A stretch of 64,000 nucleotides of DNA from Desulfovibrio gilichinskyi (GTDB taxonomy: Bacteria > Desulfobacterota > Desulfovibrionia > Desulfovibrionales > Desulfovibrionaceae): contig NZ_FWZU01000002.1 of NCBI RefSeq assembly GCF_900177375.1, positions 248,001-312,000 of the forward strand, read 5' to 3'. The number at the start of each line of letters is the position of its first letter. Position 1 is the stretch's first letter. A program made the position numbers and the translations under genes. The notes below the pieces were generated by a model. It saw only the letters and a list, made by a program, of their open reading frames with translations. It was not told the origin of the DNA and did no database searches. Of this stretch, positions 6,346 through 16,049 are shown one piece after another.

Positions 6346-7422
6346 CTATTTTTTTAGCTGTACCCATGCCTCAATCATTTTTCTTTTGATGCGTGGGCTG
6401 ATGTTTTTAATAACTTCACTGTTTTTGAGTTTTTTTTCTGTTGGGTAAATGATCTCGTTTTCCAGCATAGTCTTGGGAATAAGTTTACGGTCTTCAGCAT
6501 TTGGAGTTGCAAATTCAAGTTCAAATGCGGCTTTTGCACTGTTTTGTGCTTCAGAAAGATAATTTATAAAGTCGTACGCCAGCTCAGGATATTTTGTATG
6601 AGAGGAAACAACCATGTAGTCTACCCATATTTCACCGCCCTCTTTGGGGAGGACGTAGCGTATGTCCGGGTTTCTTTTTTGGAGTAATAGGGCGTCTCCG
6701 TTCCACGCTTGTCCCATCCATGTCTCACCTGAGACAATCCCGGAATCTGCATTGGTTTTGAAGTATCCATAAGTTTGCACATATGGTTCTTGTTTTTTTT
6801 AAATGTCGATTGCAGCATCCATAGCTTCAGGGTTTTCAGAGTTAATTGAGTATCCAAGACCTTTCAGAGCCAGTCCGATACCCAGACGATGGATATCTAA
6901 AACCATAATTTTACCGCGCCATGCTTCTTTCGGCTGGTAAAACTGCATCCAGCTGGAAATATCTTCACCTATTAAATCTGAACGGTAAACAATGCCTACT
7001 GTTCCCCATAAATATGGAACAGCATATTGTTTAGTGTCGGGCCATGCTTCAACCCATCTTTTATCCATGTGTACAAGGCTTGGAACTTTATTTGTTCCGA
7101 TCGGGCGAATCCAGTTTTGGCGTGAGTAGGGGGTAACATCATTGCCGTTTATCATGATTATATCGTAGCCTTTGCCCCCTTTACGCATAACGTTTTCATC
7201 ACGTTCATCAGATGACTGAAAATATTCCTGACGAATTGTGCAATTGCGGGTCTTTTCAAAATTTTCAACAATCCCTTCGCCTACGTATGCAGTCCAATTA
7301 TAAAATACCAGTTCCGGTTTTTCGTCTGCTGACGCAGGTACAAATCCGATAAATGTATAGGCGGCAGTAAATATGATAAGCAGTGTAAAAAAAAAGTTGA
7401 GTCGTTTTTTCTGGCTGAACAT
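6346..7422 (-). pseudogene. Spermidine/putrescine-binding protein (PotD-like), interrupted by an in-frame stop
   Basis: Reading leftwards from 7422, a signal peptide (TLLIIFTAAYTFIGFVPASA) precedes a PotD-type periplasmic binding protein: ELVFYNWTAYVGEGIVENF, then YDIIMINGNDV, then YAVPYLWGTVGIVYRSDLI. After IDI a TAA codon (6799-6801) interrupts the frame. The same frame then continues with KKQEPYVQTYGYF, SGETWMGQAWNGDAL, VDYMVVSSHTKYPELAYDFINYL and a normal C terminus. The halves together give the usual length of about 358 residues, so one base change explains the break. An 8-A run directly follows the T run, but slippage within the A run would not remove the stop. No permease or ATPase genes are adjacent. 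A complete potDABC system lies at 49952-53881. Confidence 0.85.
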
Positions 7423-7734: not shown

Positions 7735-8961
7735 ATGGAAGATGAACTTGTAGGAGAAATCGGAAACTACGTTACCGGCGATAGGTTCTGGGGGCGAGAA
7801 GACGAGCTTGAGCTTTTACAAAATTATCTTGTAGAAGGTGCAAATGTATCTATTCTTGCCCAGCGGCGCATAGGTAAGACGAGCCTTATGCATGAGACTG
7901 CAAAAAGACTTCCCGATGAGTTCATTCCACTTCATATAGATTTGCAAGCATGTAATACTGCCGCAGATTTGGTTAAGAAGGTGGCAGTTGCTACTAAGCC
8001 TTACGACAAATTATGGCGTAAAATACTTTCGCCTTTTAAAAACATGCTTGCTTCCACCAAGGACAATTTAGATTCCATAAGTGTAGATTCTTTCAAAATA
8101 AAATTTAAGGAAGGGGTCTCTGAAGACAACTGGCAGGATAAAGGAACCCAAGTTCTAGAAATTTTAGCCGATCATGAGAAAAGAGTGGTGCTTTTTATTG
8201 ATGAGCTGCCTATTATGATTTCTCGTATGCTGGATGAATCTCCTGATCGTGGTAAAAATGAGGTGCATATCTTTTTATCTTGGCTTCGAGAGAAATCACA
8301 AAAGTATAAAGGTAAAATATCGATGGTGTTTGCCGGTTCCATAGGTCTTGAGCCCGTGCTGAACAGAGCGAAAATCAGTGCAGACATGAATCATTTGACC
8401 ACTTTTAGATTGGAACCATGGCGCGATTCCGTAGCGTTGAGCTGTTTGCATGCTCTTGCAGCCCATCGTCAACTTAATTTGCCTGATGAATCTGCACGAA
8501 GGATGATTGAGTTACTAGGGTGCAATATCCCCTATCACGTGCAGCTCTTTTTTGCCAATGTCAGAGAACATATTCTGCTTACGAAACCCTCAGCACTTAA
8601 ACCCGGCGTCATAAATGAAATTTTCCAAGAAAAAATGATTTCTTCGCGAGGGCATGCCGAATTGGTTCATATGGAAGAGCGTCTTGATAAAGAGCTTGAT
8701 AAGGCGGAGTTGCAGCTGGCTAAAAGTATTTTGACACAAGCTGCTGTAATAGGATTTGTAGAATCAGGCGGGATGTGTAAACTGTTCGATCGTCACGCGT
8801 TTTCTAAAGAGGATCGAGTTAATATTTTGCCTAGACTGTGCGAGATTCTTGTTAGCGACGGATATTTAAAGAAGAATGAAGCCGGTAAATATGTATTTGT
8901 ATCAAATCTGCTGCATAAGTGGTGGGAGAATAAGTATAAAGATTTTTTTGAGACGGTATAG
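7735..8961 (+). CDS. AAA/STAND-type P-loop ATPase with C-terminal winged-helix-like region (first of a pair)
   Basis: The 408-residue protein has a GREDEL element (about 20-25), a Walker A of the form AQRRIGKTS (42-50), a Walker B VVLFIDE (151-157) and a sensor-like VFAGSIGLEPVL (198-209). This order is that of archaeal-ATPase/AAA_16 members of the STAND and AAA groups. The first Gly of the Walker A is replaced by Ala. The last 60 residues resemble a winged helix ending KWWENKYKDFF. It has no signal peptide or membrane segment. AAGGA precedes the ATG. It is followed after 9 bases by a second, larger ATPase, so the two are almost certainly co-expressed. Its function is unknown; a nucleotide-driven switch in stress or phage defence is a guess from the architecture. 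Confidence 0.85.
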   Translation: MEDELVGEIGNYVTGDRFWGREDELELLQNYLVEGANVSILAQRRIGKTSLMHETAKRLPDEFIPLHIDLQACNTAADLVKKVAVATKPYDKLWRKILSPFKNMLASTKDNLDSISVDSFKIKFKEGVSEDNWQDKGTQVLEILADHEKRVVLFIDELPIMISRMLDESPDRGKNEVHIFLSWLREKSQKYKGKISMVFAGSIGLEPVLNRAKISADMNHLTTFRLEPWRDSVALSCLHALAAHRQLNLPDESARRMIELLGCNIPYHVQLFFANVREHILLTKPSALKPGVINEIFQEKMISSRGHAELVHMEERLDKELDKAELQLAKSILTQAAVIGFVESGGMCKLFDRHAFSKEDRVNILPRLCEILVSDGYLKKNEAGKYVFVSNLLHKWWENKYKDFFETV

Positions 8962-8970
8962 GGGAATATT

Positions 8971-11202
8971 ATGAGCGGTAAAATTGTTAAATACAATCCA
9001 TCTTTTTTGAATGACCAAGAGCTGATAGATTCATTTGTTGTACGGCATGGTTTTCTTGAACTTCTTTTGGAAGTTATCCGCGAGAACACGCACCAAAATA
9101 ACCAACATGTAATTGCAATCGGTCCTCGCGGCAGTGGAAAAACAACTTTACTTCGTCGTGTGATTGCGGAAATCCGCCAGCAAAAAGAGCTAAGCGACCT
9201 CTGGTATCCTTTACCTTTTGGTGAAGAAAGCTATGAAATCGCCTCTGCCGGAGAATTCTGGCTGGAGGCTCTTCACCATCTCGGTGGGCTTACCGGTGAT
9301 CCCAGCTGGGGTAAGGCTTATGACGAATTGCTTGGAGAACATGACGAAAAAAGGCTGCAAGAACGTTGCCTGTCTAGGCTACTTGACTTTGCGGATAAAT
9401 GCGGCAAGCGGTTATTGCTTGTAGTTGAGAATCTCAACCTTATGCTTGGTGAACAGCTTGAAGATATAGACGCATGGGCATTACGAGAGACTCTGATGCA
9501 CGAGCCGCGAATAATGTTACTAGGATCAGCCACCGCCAGTTTTGCGGCTATTACGGATCAGAATCAGGCTATGTTCGAGCTTTTTCGCGTATTTCATATG
9601 TCGCGACTTACAGTCGAAGAATGCCAAAAGGTCTGGAGCCAAGTGGCAGGGCAAGACATAACAGAAAAGCAGGCTAGAGCTGTACAAATTCTTACAGGTG
9701 GAAATCCCCGTCTATTAACAATTCTATCTTTATTCGGGTCGACTCGCTCATTTCGCTCATTAATGGATGATTTATCCTTGCTGGTAGATGAACACACTGA
9801 TTATTTTAAGTCCAATTTTGAAAGCCTTCCCCCAAAAGAACGCAAAGTCTTCGCGTGCTTGGCATCGCTTTGGGAAGACAGCCTCTCCAGTGAAATTGCC
9901 AGAGCCGCCCGCATGACAACAAGTCAGGTCAGTGCACAGCTGAAACGTTTGGAAAGTCGCGGATGTGTACGGGTTGTGAGTAATGAAAAAGGCAAAAAAA
10001 GATATCAACTGGCTGAACGGTTATACAATATTTATTATTTAATGAGACGAAGCCAAAACGATGGCAGAGTTAAAGCTGTAGTATACTTTATGCGTCAATT
10101 TTACGGGCAGGAGCGTTTGCACGAAGCCATGAGTATTATCGCCAGCGAAGCCTGCCAAATGAAAGATGGAGAACGACAGGATCATTACCGTGCCTTTCAA
10201 ATTTTTTGTAATTATCCAGAAGCAAAAGATAAATTACAGCTTTTCCGAGAGGCCATATCTCCAGCCTTCCGAGAACTTCCGGATCTTCCAGATAGTGTAA
10301 AGAAATTGCTCAAGCCGGATGTTAAAAATGAAGAACTTTTTAAAATAGCTAAGGATATCAACAAGAGTCTCAATGCTGCTAACTGGAATGATGCCGAAGA
10401 AAAATTACGCCGGTATGTTGAATTAGATTCTAATGAGGCTAAAGGGTGGGGGGTTTTAGGAGAGAGACTCGTCCAAATAGGCCAGTCAGATGAAGGGATT
10501 AAATGCTTACGCAAGGCTATTGAATTAGCTCCTAATTTAGTAGCAGCTTGGTTTGCTCTTGGGGGCACCCTTATCTTTGACTTAAATAGACAAAGTGAAG
10601 GATATGAGTGTCTCAAAAAAGCTGCAGCCATTGAGCAAAATATATTTTGTAATAATCCATACCTCCTCAATAAAATACGAAGCACTGATGTTTCAATGGA
10701 AACTCTTGAAAATATTTTAAATTCTACGAATAGGCCGGGCGATTTATTAAATAATATTGCTTGCGCCGTGATGGATAAAATGAACAAAAGCGACTATGAG
10801 GATATGGCTACAATTGTCGCTTGGGCGAGAGAGAGTGTAGAAAAAACAGATGGGGAAAAATATACGCATGGCACTCTTGCTAGAGCTTTAGCCCTACAGG
10901 GTAATATCCTTGAAGCACTCCCACATGTTCAAACTGTTCTTGCTGACATTGAACTGGTTAACAACAATATTCAAGAGATGACGGACATACTCACTCTTGC
11001 CGCTGCCTTCGGTCACGGGCAAGAAGCTTTAGACCTGTTAGTCGCGTCACCCAGTTTAAATGCACTGGAACCTGTCGCCGTGGGGCTTAAGCAGTACTTA
11101 GGGCTTGACGTACAAGCTCCTCAAGAAGTTAAAGAAATTGGTGAAGATATCGTTAAAAATATTGAAATGTGGAAAGAGAAACGAGTCCTGCGTATAAGGT
11201 AG
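8971..11202 (+). CDS. P-loop ATPase with winged-helix and TPR regions (second of a pair)
   Basis: The 743-residue protein has a Walker A GPRGSGKTT (51-59) and a Walker B-like LLLVVEN (148-154), in which the usual Asp-Glu has become Glu-Asn. A sensor-like stretch MLLGSATASF (182-191) follows. A MarR-like winged helix lies at about 287-350 (SSEIARAARMTTSQVSAQLK, then KKRYQLAERLYNIYY). Tetratricopeptide-type helical repeats begin at about 455 (ANWNDAEEKL, LGERLVQIGQSDEGIKCLRK, ALGGTLIFDLNRQSEGYECL). ATPase, winged helix and TPR in one chain is the plan of STAND-type signalling proteins, where TPRs sense and the ATPase switches. The altered Walker B suggests weak hydrolysis. It is coupled to the ATPase upstream and lies 38 bases before a deaminase gene. 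I know no named system with exactly this trio. Confidence 0.85.
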   Translation: MSGKIVKYNPSFLNDQELIDSFVVRHGFLELLLEVIRENTHQNNQHVIAIGPRGSGKTTLLRRVIAEIRQQKELSDLWYPLPFGEESYEIASAGEFWLEALHHLGGLTGDPSWGKAYDELLGEHDEKRLQERCLSRLLDFADKCGKRLLLVVENLNLMLGEQLEDIDAWALRETLMHEPRIMLLGSATASFAAITDQNQAMFELFRVFHMSRLTVEECQKVWSQVAGQDITEKQARAVQILTGGNPRLLTILSLFGSTRSFRSLMDDLSLLVDEHTDYFKSNFESLPPKERKVFACLASLWEDSLSSEIARAARMTTSQVSAQLKRLESRGCVRVVSNEKGKKRYQLAERLYNIYYLMRRSQNDGRVKAVVYFMRQFYGQERLHEAMSIIASEACQMKDGERQDHYRAFQIFCNYPEAKDKLQLFREAISPAFRELPDLPDSVKKLLKPDVKNEELFKIAKDINKSLNAANWNDAEEKLRRYVELDSNEAKGWGVLGERLVQIGQSDEGIKCLRKAIELAPNLVAAWFALGGTLIFDLNRQSEGYECLKKAAAIEQNIFCNNPYLLNKIRSTDVSMETLENILNSTNRPGDLLNNIACAVMDKMNKSDYEDMATIVAWARESVEKTDGEKYTHGTLARALALQGNILEALPHVQTVLADIELVNNNIQEMTDILTLAAAFGHGQEALDLLVASPSLNALEPVAVGLKQYLGLDVQAPQEVKEIGEDIVKNIEMWKEKRVLRIR

Positions 11203-11240
11203 ACCTGTCACCGATAGAAGATACAAACAAAAGGATTATA

Positions 11241-11684
11241 ATGATGAATAATAAATTTATGCAGGCCGCTTTAGAACAAGCAAGAGTCGGAATGAACGAA
11301 GGCGGTATTCCCATCGGTTCCGTCTTGGTCCATAACGGGAAAATAATCGGCGAAGGGAGAAACAGACGAATCCAAGAAGGTAGTGTCATCAAACATGGAG
11401 AAATGGATGCTCTGGAAAACGCGGGAAGGCAACCCGCCAGCATTTACCGGGAATCAATACTCTACACCACATTATCCCCATGCCCCATGTGTACCGGTGC
11501 TATTTTGTTATACGGGATAAAAAAAGTCATTATCGGTGAGAATGTGAACTACCTCGGAGCTGAAAAAACTTTACTGGAAAATGGTGTTGAAATTAATGTT
11601 TTACAAAATGAAGATTGCATTAATTTAATGAGAACTTTTATTGAAAATAATCCAACTCTCTGGAATGAAGACATCGGAGAATAA
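11241..11684 (+). CDS. Cytosine deaminase of the yeast Fcy1 type (CDA fold nucleobase/nucleoside deaminase)
   Basis: The 147-residue protein has the zinc signature of the deaminase superfamily: HGEMDALENAG (His ligand and catalytic Glu) and TLSPCPMCTGAI (two Cys ligands). Beyond that it closely tracks yeast cytosine deaminase as I remember it: an EGGIPIGSVLV start, LYTTLSPC, YGIKKVIIGENVNYLG, and the end FIENNPTLWNEDIGE. The expected reaction is hydrolytic deamination of cytosine to uracil. Two ATG codons (11241, 11244) follow AAGGA; the first is chosen. An upstream open stretch overlaps the ATPase gene and is not needed. It could be salvage only, or an effector linked to the ATPase pair 38 bases upstream. 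Confidence 0.88.
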   Translation: MMNNKFMQAALEQARVGMNEGGIPIGSVLVHNGKIIGEGRNRRIQEGSVIKHGEMDALENAGRQPASIYRESILYTTLSPCPMCTGAILLYGIKKVIIGENVNYLGAEKTLLENGVEINVLQNEDCINLMRTFIENNPTLWNEDIGE

Positions 11685-14324: not shown

Positions 14325-16049
14325 ATGGCTGACAATAAAAGTAAGATAAGTACCAGTCCTTATTTCCACCTCATTACTGCGGTTCTCAGCCTGCAGCATA
14401 TTATCATTGTTTTTGTCGGGATTATGATTGTGCCGGCCATGGTGGCTCAGCTCTACAGATTAAGTCCTGAAGAAACTCACTATCTTATCTTTATGACGAC
14501 CCTCGGGGCTGGAATATCTACACTGCTCCAGCCATATAAATTCAAACAGTTCGGACTGGGAATGCCCATGTATATGGGGACATCAGGTGCGTTCATGGCC
14601 TGCGCCTCTGCGTCCTTAAATTTGGGAGGACTATCTCTCTTTTCAACATTGTCACTTATGTCCGCTCCGTTTCAGATTCTGTTTAGTTACGGCATAAGAT
14701 TTATGCGGCACATCCTTACTCCCACTGTAGGCGGGGTAATAATCATGCTCGCTATAGCAGGACTTTTGAAAGATTCTGTAAATATCTGGATAGAGGCAGG
14801 CTCCGCAGGGCAGGCTGGTCTTTTGAATGTTATGATAGGGATGATAACCATTTTAATAATGATTCTTGTAGAATGGTTTGGAAAAGAGAAGCTAAGACCT
14901 TGGGGTCTTTTTATGGGGCTTACTGCTGGAATTATTGTCGAAGCTTTAATAGGCGGTGTCGATTTTTCCTCGGTTCAGAACGCGCCGTGGATTGGTCTTC
15001 CCCCTATGCATTGGCCTGAGTTCTGTTTTGATATTACCAACCTCGGGCACTGGACAGCGTATTTTACATTTATAGTTTCGGTTCAGGTCGCCAGCATTAA
15101 ATATGTGGGTGATGCCATGGCCTTGCAAAGAGTGGTCAACCCCGGGCAGAAAAGAACTGATTTTGATGCAATTCAAGGCGGCCTTTATTCAAGCAGCGTG
15201 GGAATGGCTGTAACTTCCATCCTCGGCGGTATGCCTTCCACGTCACATTCAGCGAATATTCCGCTGATGGAGATGACCGGCATCGCAAGCAGAAAGGTTG
15301 CTGTAGTTGCTGCGCTGATGCTTATGGCCGTAATTTTTTCTCCCAAAACAGCCTACCTTTTTGATTCAATACCCGGTGAAGTTATCGGGGCGGTGGGCGT
15401 TGTGCTTGTGGCGCATCTTTTTGCCACAGGAGTGCGCATACTTGCCACAGAGCTTGACTACCGTAATGCTGTAATTGCCGGATTATCATTATGTTTCGGG
15501 ATTATAGCTGAAAATAATTCGTTTTATCCCGACGCATTTCCTTTGTTTCTACAGCCGCTGACAACTAATGGTTTTGCCGTGGGAGGGCTGATTGCGGTTG
15601 GATTAACTATACTTACGCGCTTTAGCGTTAAGCATTCCATCCTTTTTTTTGTTAAGCCTGTAGCGGAAGAAATTGTGACCATACGCAATAAAGTTTCCTC
15701 CTTTTCCGCTCAATCAGGGATGAGTCTCAAAAGTTCCAATTATCTTGAGATAGCTTGTGAGGAAATTTTTGTTCACGCTCTTTCAGAACTTGAACAGGCG
15801 CAGAACCAAGGGATGGTCAGATATAAAATGCATATGTTGGATAACAAAATAAAAGTAGAAATTTCTTTCGGTGCACGGCTGAATAGTGATGTCGGGCATG
15901 TGTCGGAATCTGCTTGCAGCGTTTATAAAATGAGTGAAGAGGAACTTAAAAGCCTCGGGCTTATTCTTCTTACCAAAATAGTAAACGATATCACTCATCA
16001 GGACATGGGCCATTATACATACATCTGTTTCAATGTTCCGCTGAAATAG
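14325..16049 (+). CDS. NCS2-type nucleobase permease fused to a histidine-kinase-like ATPase domain
   Basis: Residues 1 to about 440 form a xanthine/uracil-permease family transporter with about 12-14 membrane helices. Family-like segments include QHIIIVFVGIMIVPAM, MYMGTSGAFM, TPTVGGVIIMLAIAGL and GGMPSTSHSANI. Residues about 450-574 are a soluble domain resembling RsbW/HATPase_c_2 anti-sigma kinases: LEIACEEIFVHALSEL in the position of the N box (with His where Asn is usual) and LGLILLTKIVNDITHQDMG like the G2 region. The fusion suggests that transport or substrate binding is coupled to nucleotide-dependent signalling, or that the ATPase domain regulates the carrier. No strong ribosome site is seen before the ATG. 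The C-terminal assignment rests on motif resemblance. Confidence 0.85.
   Translation: MADNKSKISTSPYFHLITAVLSLQHIIIVFVGIMIVPAMVAQLYRLSPEETHYLIFMTTLGAGISTLLQPYKFKQFGLGMPMYMGTSGAFMACASASLNLGGLSLFSTLSLMSAPFQILFSYGIRFMRHILTPTVGGVIIMLAIAGLLKDSVNIWIEAGSAGQAGLLNVMIGMITILIMILVEWFGKEKLRPWGLFMGLTAGIIVEALIGGVDFSSVQNAPWIGLPPMHWPEFCFDITNLGHWTAYFTFIVSVQVASIKYVGDAMALQRVVNPGQKRTDFDAIQGGLYSSSVGMAVTSILGGMPSTSHSANIPLMEMTGIASRKVAVVAALMLMAVIFSPKTAYLFDSIPGEVIGAVGVVLVAHLFATGVRILATELDYRNAVIAGLSLCFGIIAENNSFYPDAFPLFLQPLTTNGFAVGGLIAVGLTILTRFSVKHSILFFVKPVAEEIVTIRNKVSSFSAQSGMSLKSSNYLEIACEEIFVHALSELEQAQNQGMVRYKMHMLDNKIKVEISFGARLNSDVGHVSESACSVYKMSEEELKSLGLILLTKIVNDITHQDMGHYTYICFNVPLK

Follow-up and report, generated by a model that had tools for sequence, protein, structure and literature searches.

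Switches of the STAND class (signal transduction ATPases with numerous domains) usually consist of one protein. Avs proteins are single and large and carry an N-terminal effector, while the origin recognition complex (ORC) contains different subunits with unequal ATPase activity. ATPase-plus-deaminase defences are also known, such as RADAR, which combines the ATPase RdrA with the adenosine deaminase RdrB. In PMC6468293, STAND proteins are described as multimerising in an ATP-dependent manner when triggered by a ligand. In this work, we analysed a stretch of 64,000 nucleotides from Desulfovibrio gilichinskyi (hereafter the window; 248001-312000 of contig NZ_FWZU01000002.1, in a genome of 3.96 Mb), in which two adjacent ATPase genes, here called ATPase1 and ATPase2, precede a gene for a yeast-type cytosine deaminase. 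An earlier note had regarded the three genes as a candidate for an undescribed anti-phage system. The two ATPase genes form a genuine conserved unit, whose adjacency goes beyond chance, and no third gene recurs with them. The pair is probably a two-gene split switch of the STAND/ORC type, with the deaminase independent of it.

The pairing was examined in the best 80 of 178 named-genome loci with ATPase1 relatives, selected by likeness to ATPase1; a pair was counted when the start of an ATPase2-type gene lay between -200 and +700 bases relative to the ATPase1 match. Such a gene directly followed ATPase1 in 79 of the 80 loci, and in the 80th the contig ends inside ATPase1. Because this set was chosen by ATPase1 likeness, an independent scan of 375 genomes of the phylum was made with a separate profile for each ATPase, not conditioned on pairing. 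Strong ATPase2 matches (at least 289 bits) occurred in seven genomes, strong ATPase1 matches (at least 251 bits) in the same seven, and the two were adjacent every time; stop codons lay within two of these seven ATPase1 matches (G250 and G394). Of the 57 loci with an identifiable ATG, 45 show an overlap of the two genes, by exactly 4 bases in 24 of them when the most upstream ATG is taken. Moreover, the ATPase1 and ATPase2 distances of 65 sequences were correlated with an r of 0.955, the best of 2000 permutations reaching 0.13, so that shared descent of the two genes is evident. Among 147 relatives besides the window, the pair was present only in G007 (59 and 67% identity) and G046, and within the genus the closest relative with a pair bears the label Desulfovibrio sp. 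Phyla are mixed in the ATPase1 tree, with 21 changes for 14 groups (minimum 13), although they still cluster (shuffled mean 35.8).

The earlier note had placed the three genes on one strand with gaps of 9 bases (ATPase1 to ATPase2) and 38 bases (ATPase2 to deaminase), and the open reading frames (ORFs) confirmed this layout. The features of the locus are as follows, with conservation counted over aligned rows.

7735..8961, + strand: ATPase1, 408 aa, AAA+/STAND-type ATPase with a C-terminal helical and winged-helix part (ORF, Pfam, structure model, Foldseek)
7864..7884, + strand: ATPase1 Walker A RRIGKTS, residues 44-50 (Gly47 in 80 of 81 rows, Lys48 in 79 of 81)
8200..8205, + strand: acidic Walker B pair of ATPase1, Asp156-Glu157 (kept in 80 of 81 rows, with a gap in L106)
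8971..11202, + strand: ATPase2, 743 aa, with ATPase, winged helix and tetratricopeptide repeat (TPR) tail (ORF, Pfam, structure model, Foldseek)
9121..9147, + strand: ATPase2 Walker A GPRGSGKTT, residues 51-59 (67 of 72 rows have Gly56 and Lys57, and 5 have a gap)
9427..9432, + strand: ATPase2 altered Walker B Glu153-Asn154, in VVENL (Asn in 72 of 72 rows)
9832..10011, + strand: winged helix of ATPase2, roughly residues 288-347 (Pfam MarR_2 at E 6.1e-5, under the cut-off; the structure model has helices and a hairpin here)
10321..11196, + strand: helical-repeat (TPR) tail of ATPase2, roughly residues 451-742, the presumed sensor (TPR models, helices in the structure model, fast change in relatives)
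11241..11684, + strand: yeast-type cytosine deaminase, judged to lie outside the ATPase system (match to the yeast enzyme; dCMP_cyt_deam_1, E 1.8e-23; own lineage)
11394..11402, + strand: deaminase His-Gly-Glu, aligned with yeast His62 and Glu64 (alignment)
11481..11492, + strand: deaminase Cys-x-x-Cys, aligned with yeast Cys91 and Cys94 (alignment)

Both ATPases were recognised by Pfam as carrying AAA-type ATPase domains, most of the ATPase and TPR matches lying below the curated cut-offs. In ATPase2, Pfam also placed a MarR-type winged helix near residues 306-343 and a TPR near 490-531, and the structure model (pLDDT 90.4, pTM 0.69) agreed, with an ATPase, a winged helix and a helical-repeat tail in succession. 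Its best Foldseek match was PH0952 (PDB 6mfv), and it showed the STAND-TPR order, with a P-loop ATPase first and a winged helix and TPRs behind it, so the domain content and the STAND-like order given by the earlier note hold. ATPase2 resembles PH0952 and MalT in this order, but differs from them in the Asn of Walker B, in the lack of a recognised effector domain and in the obligatory second ATPase gene beside it. Avs3 and EfAvs5 were among its structural matches, whereas the N-terminal effector of Avs was not seen in the pair: Pfam recognised no effector domain in ATPase2, whose ATPase region starts near residue 7, and neither ATPase has a recognised enzymatic effector domain. Both ATPases matched the ORC/Cdc6 fold, and ATPase2 passed the cut-off of the ORC-CDC6-like family PF24389 (32.5 bits versus 27), but over residues 7-63 only, and the TPR tail and patchy distribution of the pair set it apart. 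The model of ATPase1 (pLDDT 91.8) was closest to the archaeal-type ATPases 2qen (PABY2304) and 2fna (SSO1545), its best matches in sequence and fold, but at about 15% identity; to our knowledge these have no fixed partner.

Known defence models did not account for the pair. PADLOC matches of the two ATPases were short and weak, the best (mad8, 27.8 bits) covering the P-loop only, and gave no grounds for counting the pair among the Avs systems. At most 5 of 57 ATPase1 relatives matched any one PADLOC family at 1e-5. NCBIfam gave no match for ATPase1 and weak, below-cut-off matches for ATPase2, and PHROGs gave none. The pair was likewise not described in the literature searched, which was open-licence with subscription journals mostly outside it and included PMC12839542, PMC13092281, PMC7159879 and PMC6468293. 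Of the earlier note's proposal, the two ATPases as STAND-like partners with an altered Walker B are thus supported, and they lack PADLOC and NCBIfam matches beyond short weak stretches; the deaminase as a third member is not supported.

The Glu-Asn replacement that the earlier note had read in the Walker B of ATPase2 is real. The residue preceding the invariant Asn is Asp in 45 and Glu in 27 of the 72 rows, and the altered motif is a trait of the family. Arg172 and Arg247 of ATPase2 are invariant as well. We propose that one translationally coupled message yields ATPase1 and ATPase2, which would act together as a split switch. ATPase1, with its complete active site, would be the hydrolysing subunit. 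ATPase2 would bind ATP and hydrolyse it slowly or not at all, because Asn takes the place of the catalytic Walker B Glu. A foreign or stress-related ligand, presumably bound through the TPR tail, would cause ATPase2 to open and to assemble with ATPase1 into a mixed complex, which would then act on the cell or the invader, possibly in phage defence.

The tail of ATPase2 changes faster than the rest of the pair. Tandem DNA repeats with a period of 105 to 210 were present in the tail of 18 of 72 ATPase2 genes and in none of 80 ATPase1 genes. In the close pairs L121/L127, L142/L154 and L094/L095, identity was 96-98% in ATPase1 and 98-99% over the first 430 residues of ATPase2, but dropped to 81, 71 and 83%, respectively, over its last 200. 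The TPR arrays of L121 and L127 also differ in repeat number (4.4 versus 8.4 copies by Tandem Repeats Finder; protein lengths of 894 and 1042 aa, counted from where the profile begins). The nonsynonymous distance (dN) was higher in the tail in all six close pairs. A bolder version of the switch would be a two-piece bacterial immune receptor in which a STAND ATPase that hydrolyses ATP and a partner locked against hydrolysis share one mixed ring. The partner's TPR sensor would diversify by repeat gain, loss and exchange around a nearly constant switch, much as NLRs of plants and animals do. We consider this version possible but less likely than not.

In a three-gene anti-phage system of the kind put forward in the earlier note, phage sensing by the ATPases would activate the deaminase, which would then drain cytosine nucleotides. 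The enzyme was named correctly: residues 4-147 of its 147 match yeast cytosine deaminase (FCY1) with an E-value of 1.1e-42, and the positions aligned with His62, Glu64, Cys91 and Cys94, which we take to be the catalytic and zinc residues, are conserved. The host here is bacterial, and cytosine is the presumed substrate. The common strand, the 38-base gap and the intact-looking active site speak for a three-gene system, as do the known ATPase-plus-deaminase defences. No convincing terminator was found between ATPase2 and the deaminase, and terminator- and promoter-like sites in the stretch did not exceed those of shuffled sequences; given the short gap as well, co-transcription of the ATPases and the deaminase is possible in this one strain. 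The longest ORF of the deaminase frame starts at GTG 11169, within ATPase2, and the reading from ATG starts at 11241; ribosome-binding-like sequences, judged by eye, precede ATPase1 (AAGGAAA) and the deaminase (AAAAGGA).

The comparison with other genomes pointed the other way. When a deaminase profile was run on six-frame translations of the 80 ATPase1 loci and 16 others, one true relative appeared, in L124, 3.3 kb beyond its pair and separated from it by an opposite-strand HEPN/nucleotidyltransferase gene pair. The weak matches in L137 (47-48 bits) and L122 (27-28 bits) belong, by score and ORF length, to other deaminase-fold proteins. The three genes thus do not stay together, the deaminase directly adjoining the pair in the window genome only among the loci examined. 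Eight of 36 pair-carrying genomes have such a deaminase (E <1e-40), and it lies near the pair only in the genome of L124. Conversely, in a six-frame scan of 19 deaminase loci the deaminase was seen in all 19, and neither ATPase1 nor ATPase2 in any. Nor does another gene take its place: among 65 loci with at least 700 bases past ATPase2, a same-strand ORF followed within 150 bases in 22, no two of whose products match each other at 1e-4, and in the other 43 the next ORF is on the opposite strand or further off.

The deaminase also has a history of its own. A relative (E <1e-40) occurs in 7 of 16 other genomes of the genus, in five cases directly beside a same-looking transporter gene (MFS_1 in the one checked). 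The tree places the window deaminase with eight sequences of other lineages (support 98/96) and the seven genus copies in a separate group (98/97); the window copy was therefore probably acquired. In two Pseudoalteromonas loci the gene is near an orotidine decarboxylase gene (checked in one), and one copy precedes a dihydroorotase-like amidohydrolase gene; in the window an NCS2 nucleobase permease gene lies 2.6 kb past the deaminase on the same strand, beyond an opposite-strand sulphate-permease-type gene. This context fits pyrimidine salvage, and the enzyme would be an independent, horizontally acquired cytosine deaminase of that pathway. Yeast-type cytosine deaminases act on free cytosine, not on dCTP or dCMP. 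Named defence enzymes were not matched at length: the anti-phage dCTP deaminase NF041025 gave 37.9 bits against a cut-off of 400, over residues 40-97 only, and PADLOC dCTPase matched residues 43-97 only. RADAR shares the arrangement of an ATPase gene beside a deaminase gene, but its deaminase is of another family, the association here is not recurrent, and no RADAR model matched up to an E-value of 1, in line with the difference in enzyme and ATPase types already noted from the sequence.

The three-gene system was rejected on the pairs without an adjoining deaminase, the deaminase loci without a pair and the separate deaminase lineage. It is largely refuted by this comparison, and we consider it highly improbable. 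The earlier note had itself named the pattern that would speak against its proposal, and this is what was found: in every other locus examined the pair occurs without the deaminase adjoining it, and deaminase relatives occur elsewhere, some beside the pyrimidine genes above.

As for the split switch and its possible role in defence, several observations weigh against them. Among the 380 rows of the phylum scan, weaker matches were unpaired, for ATPase2 in G219 and G454 and for ATPase1 in G229, G343 and G457 and as second copies in G216 and G250. Plasmids of Agrobacterium and Sphingobium carry ATPase2 relatives for which no ATPase1 was found; these also have the Walker B Asn (VEN), which therefore characterises the ATPase2 family and is not explained by pairing alone. 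TM-scores over the full ATPase2 model were low (0.20 for 6mfv). The synonymous distance (dS) of the tail was also higher, 2.8 to 5.4 times in four of the six close pairs and 1.05 and 1.5 times in two. We do not claim selection on the tail, since a dS that rises too is a sign of recombination or of exchanged repeats, to which repeat misalignment may add; these, rather than selection, may be the cause of the divergence. Defence genes near the pair were counted as PADLOC families, of which the 25 commonest were listed, and not exactly as proteins, in two matched tests (109+109 and 112+112 proteins, 15+15 genomes). Control stretches were taken from available contig numbers rather than as a random sample; 15 of 20 were used per test, since 4 were absent and 1 was too short in the first and 5 were too short in the second. 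The first test gave 31 families near the pair versus 10 in the controls. The second, on 15 other genomes, gave 79 versus 155, the controls including CRISPR type I-E and Gabija-like genes, so that consistent defence-island enrichment was not found across the two tests. In several genomes the pair lies among housekeeping genes.

These neighbourhoods and the lack of consistent enrichment would suit a regulator or metabolic switch like MalT, which senses a ligand through its TPRs and contacts DNA through the winged helix to control a cell function, and the structural relatives indeed include MalT as well as PH0952, a predicted transcription factor. But the pair has no fixed neighbour to regulate, occurs patchily (7 of 375 phylum genomes and 2 of 147 relatives besides the window) and has a fast-changing tail, and Pfam recognised no separate DNA-binding effector domain; we regard such a regulator as rather unlikely. 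For defence speak the STAND architecture, the patchy spread, the variable tail and copies of the pair on Moraxella plasmids beside Qat-annotated genes. The neighbours of the solo ATPase2 relatives speak for it too: on a Sphingobium baderi plasmid (L185, L078) these are TIR, Mov34 and E1/E2 genes on one side and Pycsar genes on the other, and in Agrobacterium cyclase and ThiF genes. We judge a defence role about as probable as its absence. A part in a mobile element, where the pair would serve transposition or partition like TnsC or ORC-like ATPases, draws on the same ORC-like fold, but no transposase or replication gene recurs beside the pair, an integrase was near it only in G007 as far as tested, and no relatives of the pair were found in the viral contigs searched and none of ATPase2 in the phage records. 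We consider this role improbable.

Some pair loci had peculiarities of their own. The closest pair (G007; L058, 8613-12845) lies between a NifA-like regulator gene and nifB/nifE/nifN-like genes (nif labels assigned by eye), with a phage-type integrase upstream. In L137, L143, L148, L156 and L157, from gut-type Bacteroidota and one Bacillota, a short ATPase2 of about 310-345 aa follows ATPase1 and leaves no space for a TPR tail. On the Moraxella osloensis plasmids L072, L073 and L076, a 1248-aa gene follows the pair in one, and in the other two it is followed by a same-order cluster from dUTP diphosphatase to N-6 DNA methylase. Since these plasmids differ in the gene after the pair, no nucleotide theme was read into the dUTP diphosphatase.

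Upstream of ATPase1, two minus-strand ORFs (6346-6780 and 6799-7422) match SBP_bac_8 positions 176-262 and 2-158, respectively; as they cover successive parts of one profile, this solute-binding-protein gene looks interrupted. At 1e-30 it matched nothing in the 16 other genomes of the genus, and the best genus match of the sulphate permease, chosen for an empty-site comparison (G012, 78-79%), lacked flanking synteny to the window, so that the insertion could not be dated. The NCS2-type permease (14325-16049, + strand) has a long C-terminal extension with a weak match to a histidine-kinase-like ATPase domain (18.1 bits, cut-off 27.4).

The negative result for the deaminase matters, because neighbourhood in a single genome would otherwise have led to a spurious defence system being proposed. 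If the split switch is true, an active ATPase that is always co-encoded with an invariant-Asn partner would show how unequal subunits can make up a STAND ring, as they do in ORC. The combination of a conserved switch with a fast-changing repeat sensor would moreover make ligand recognition testable by swapping tails between near-identical relatives such as L121 and L127.

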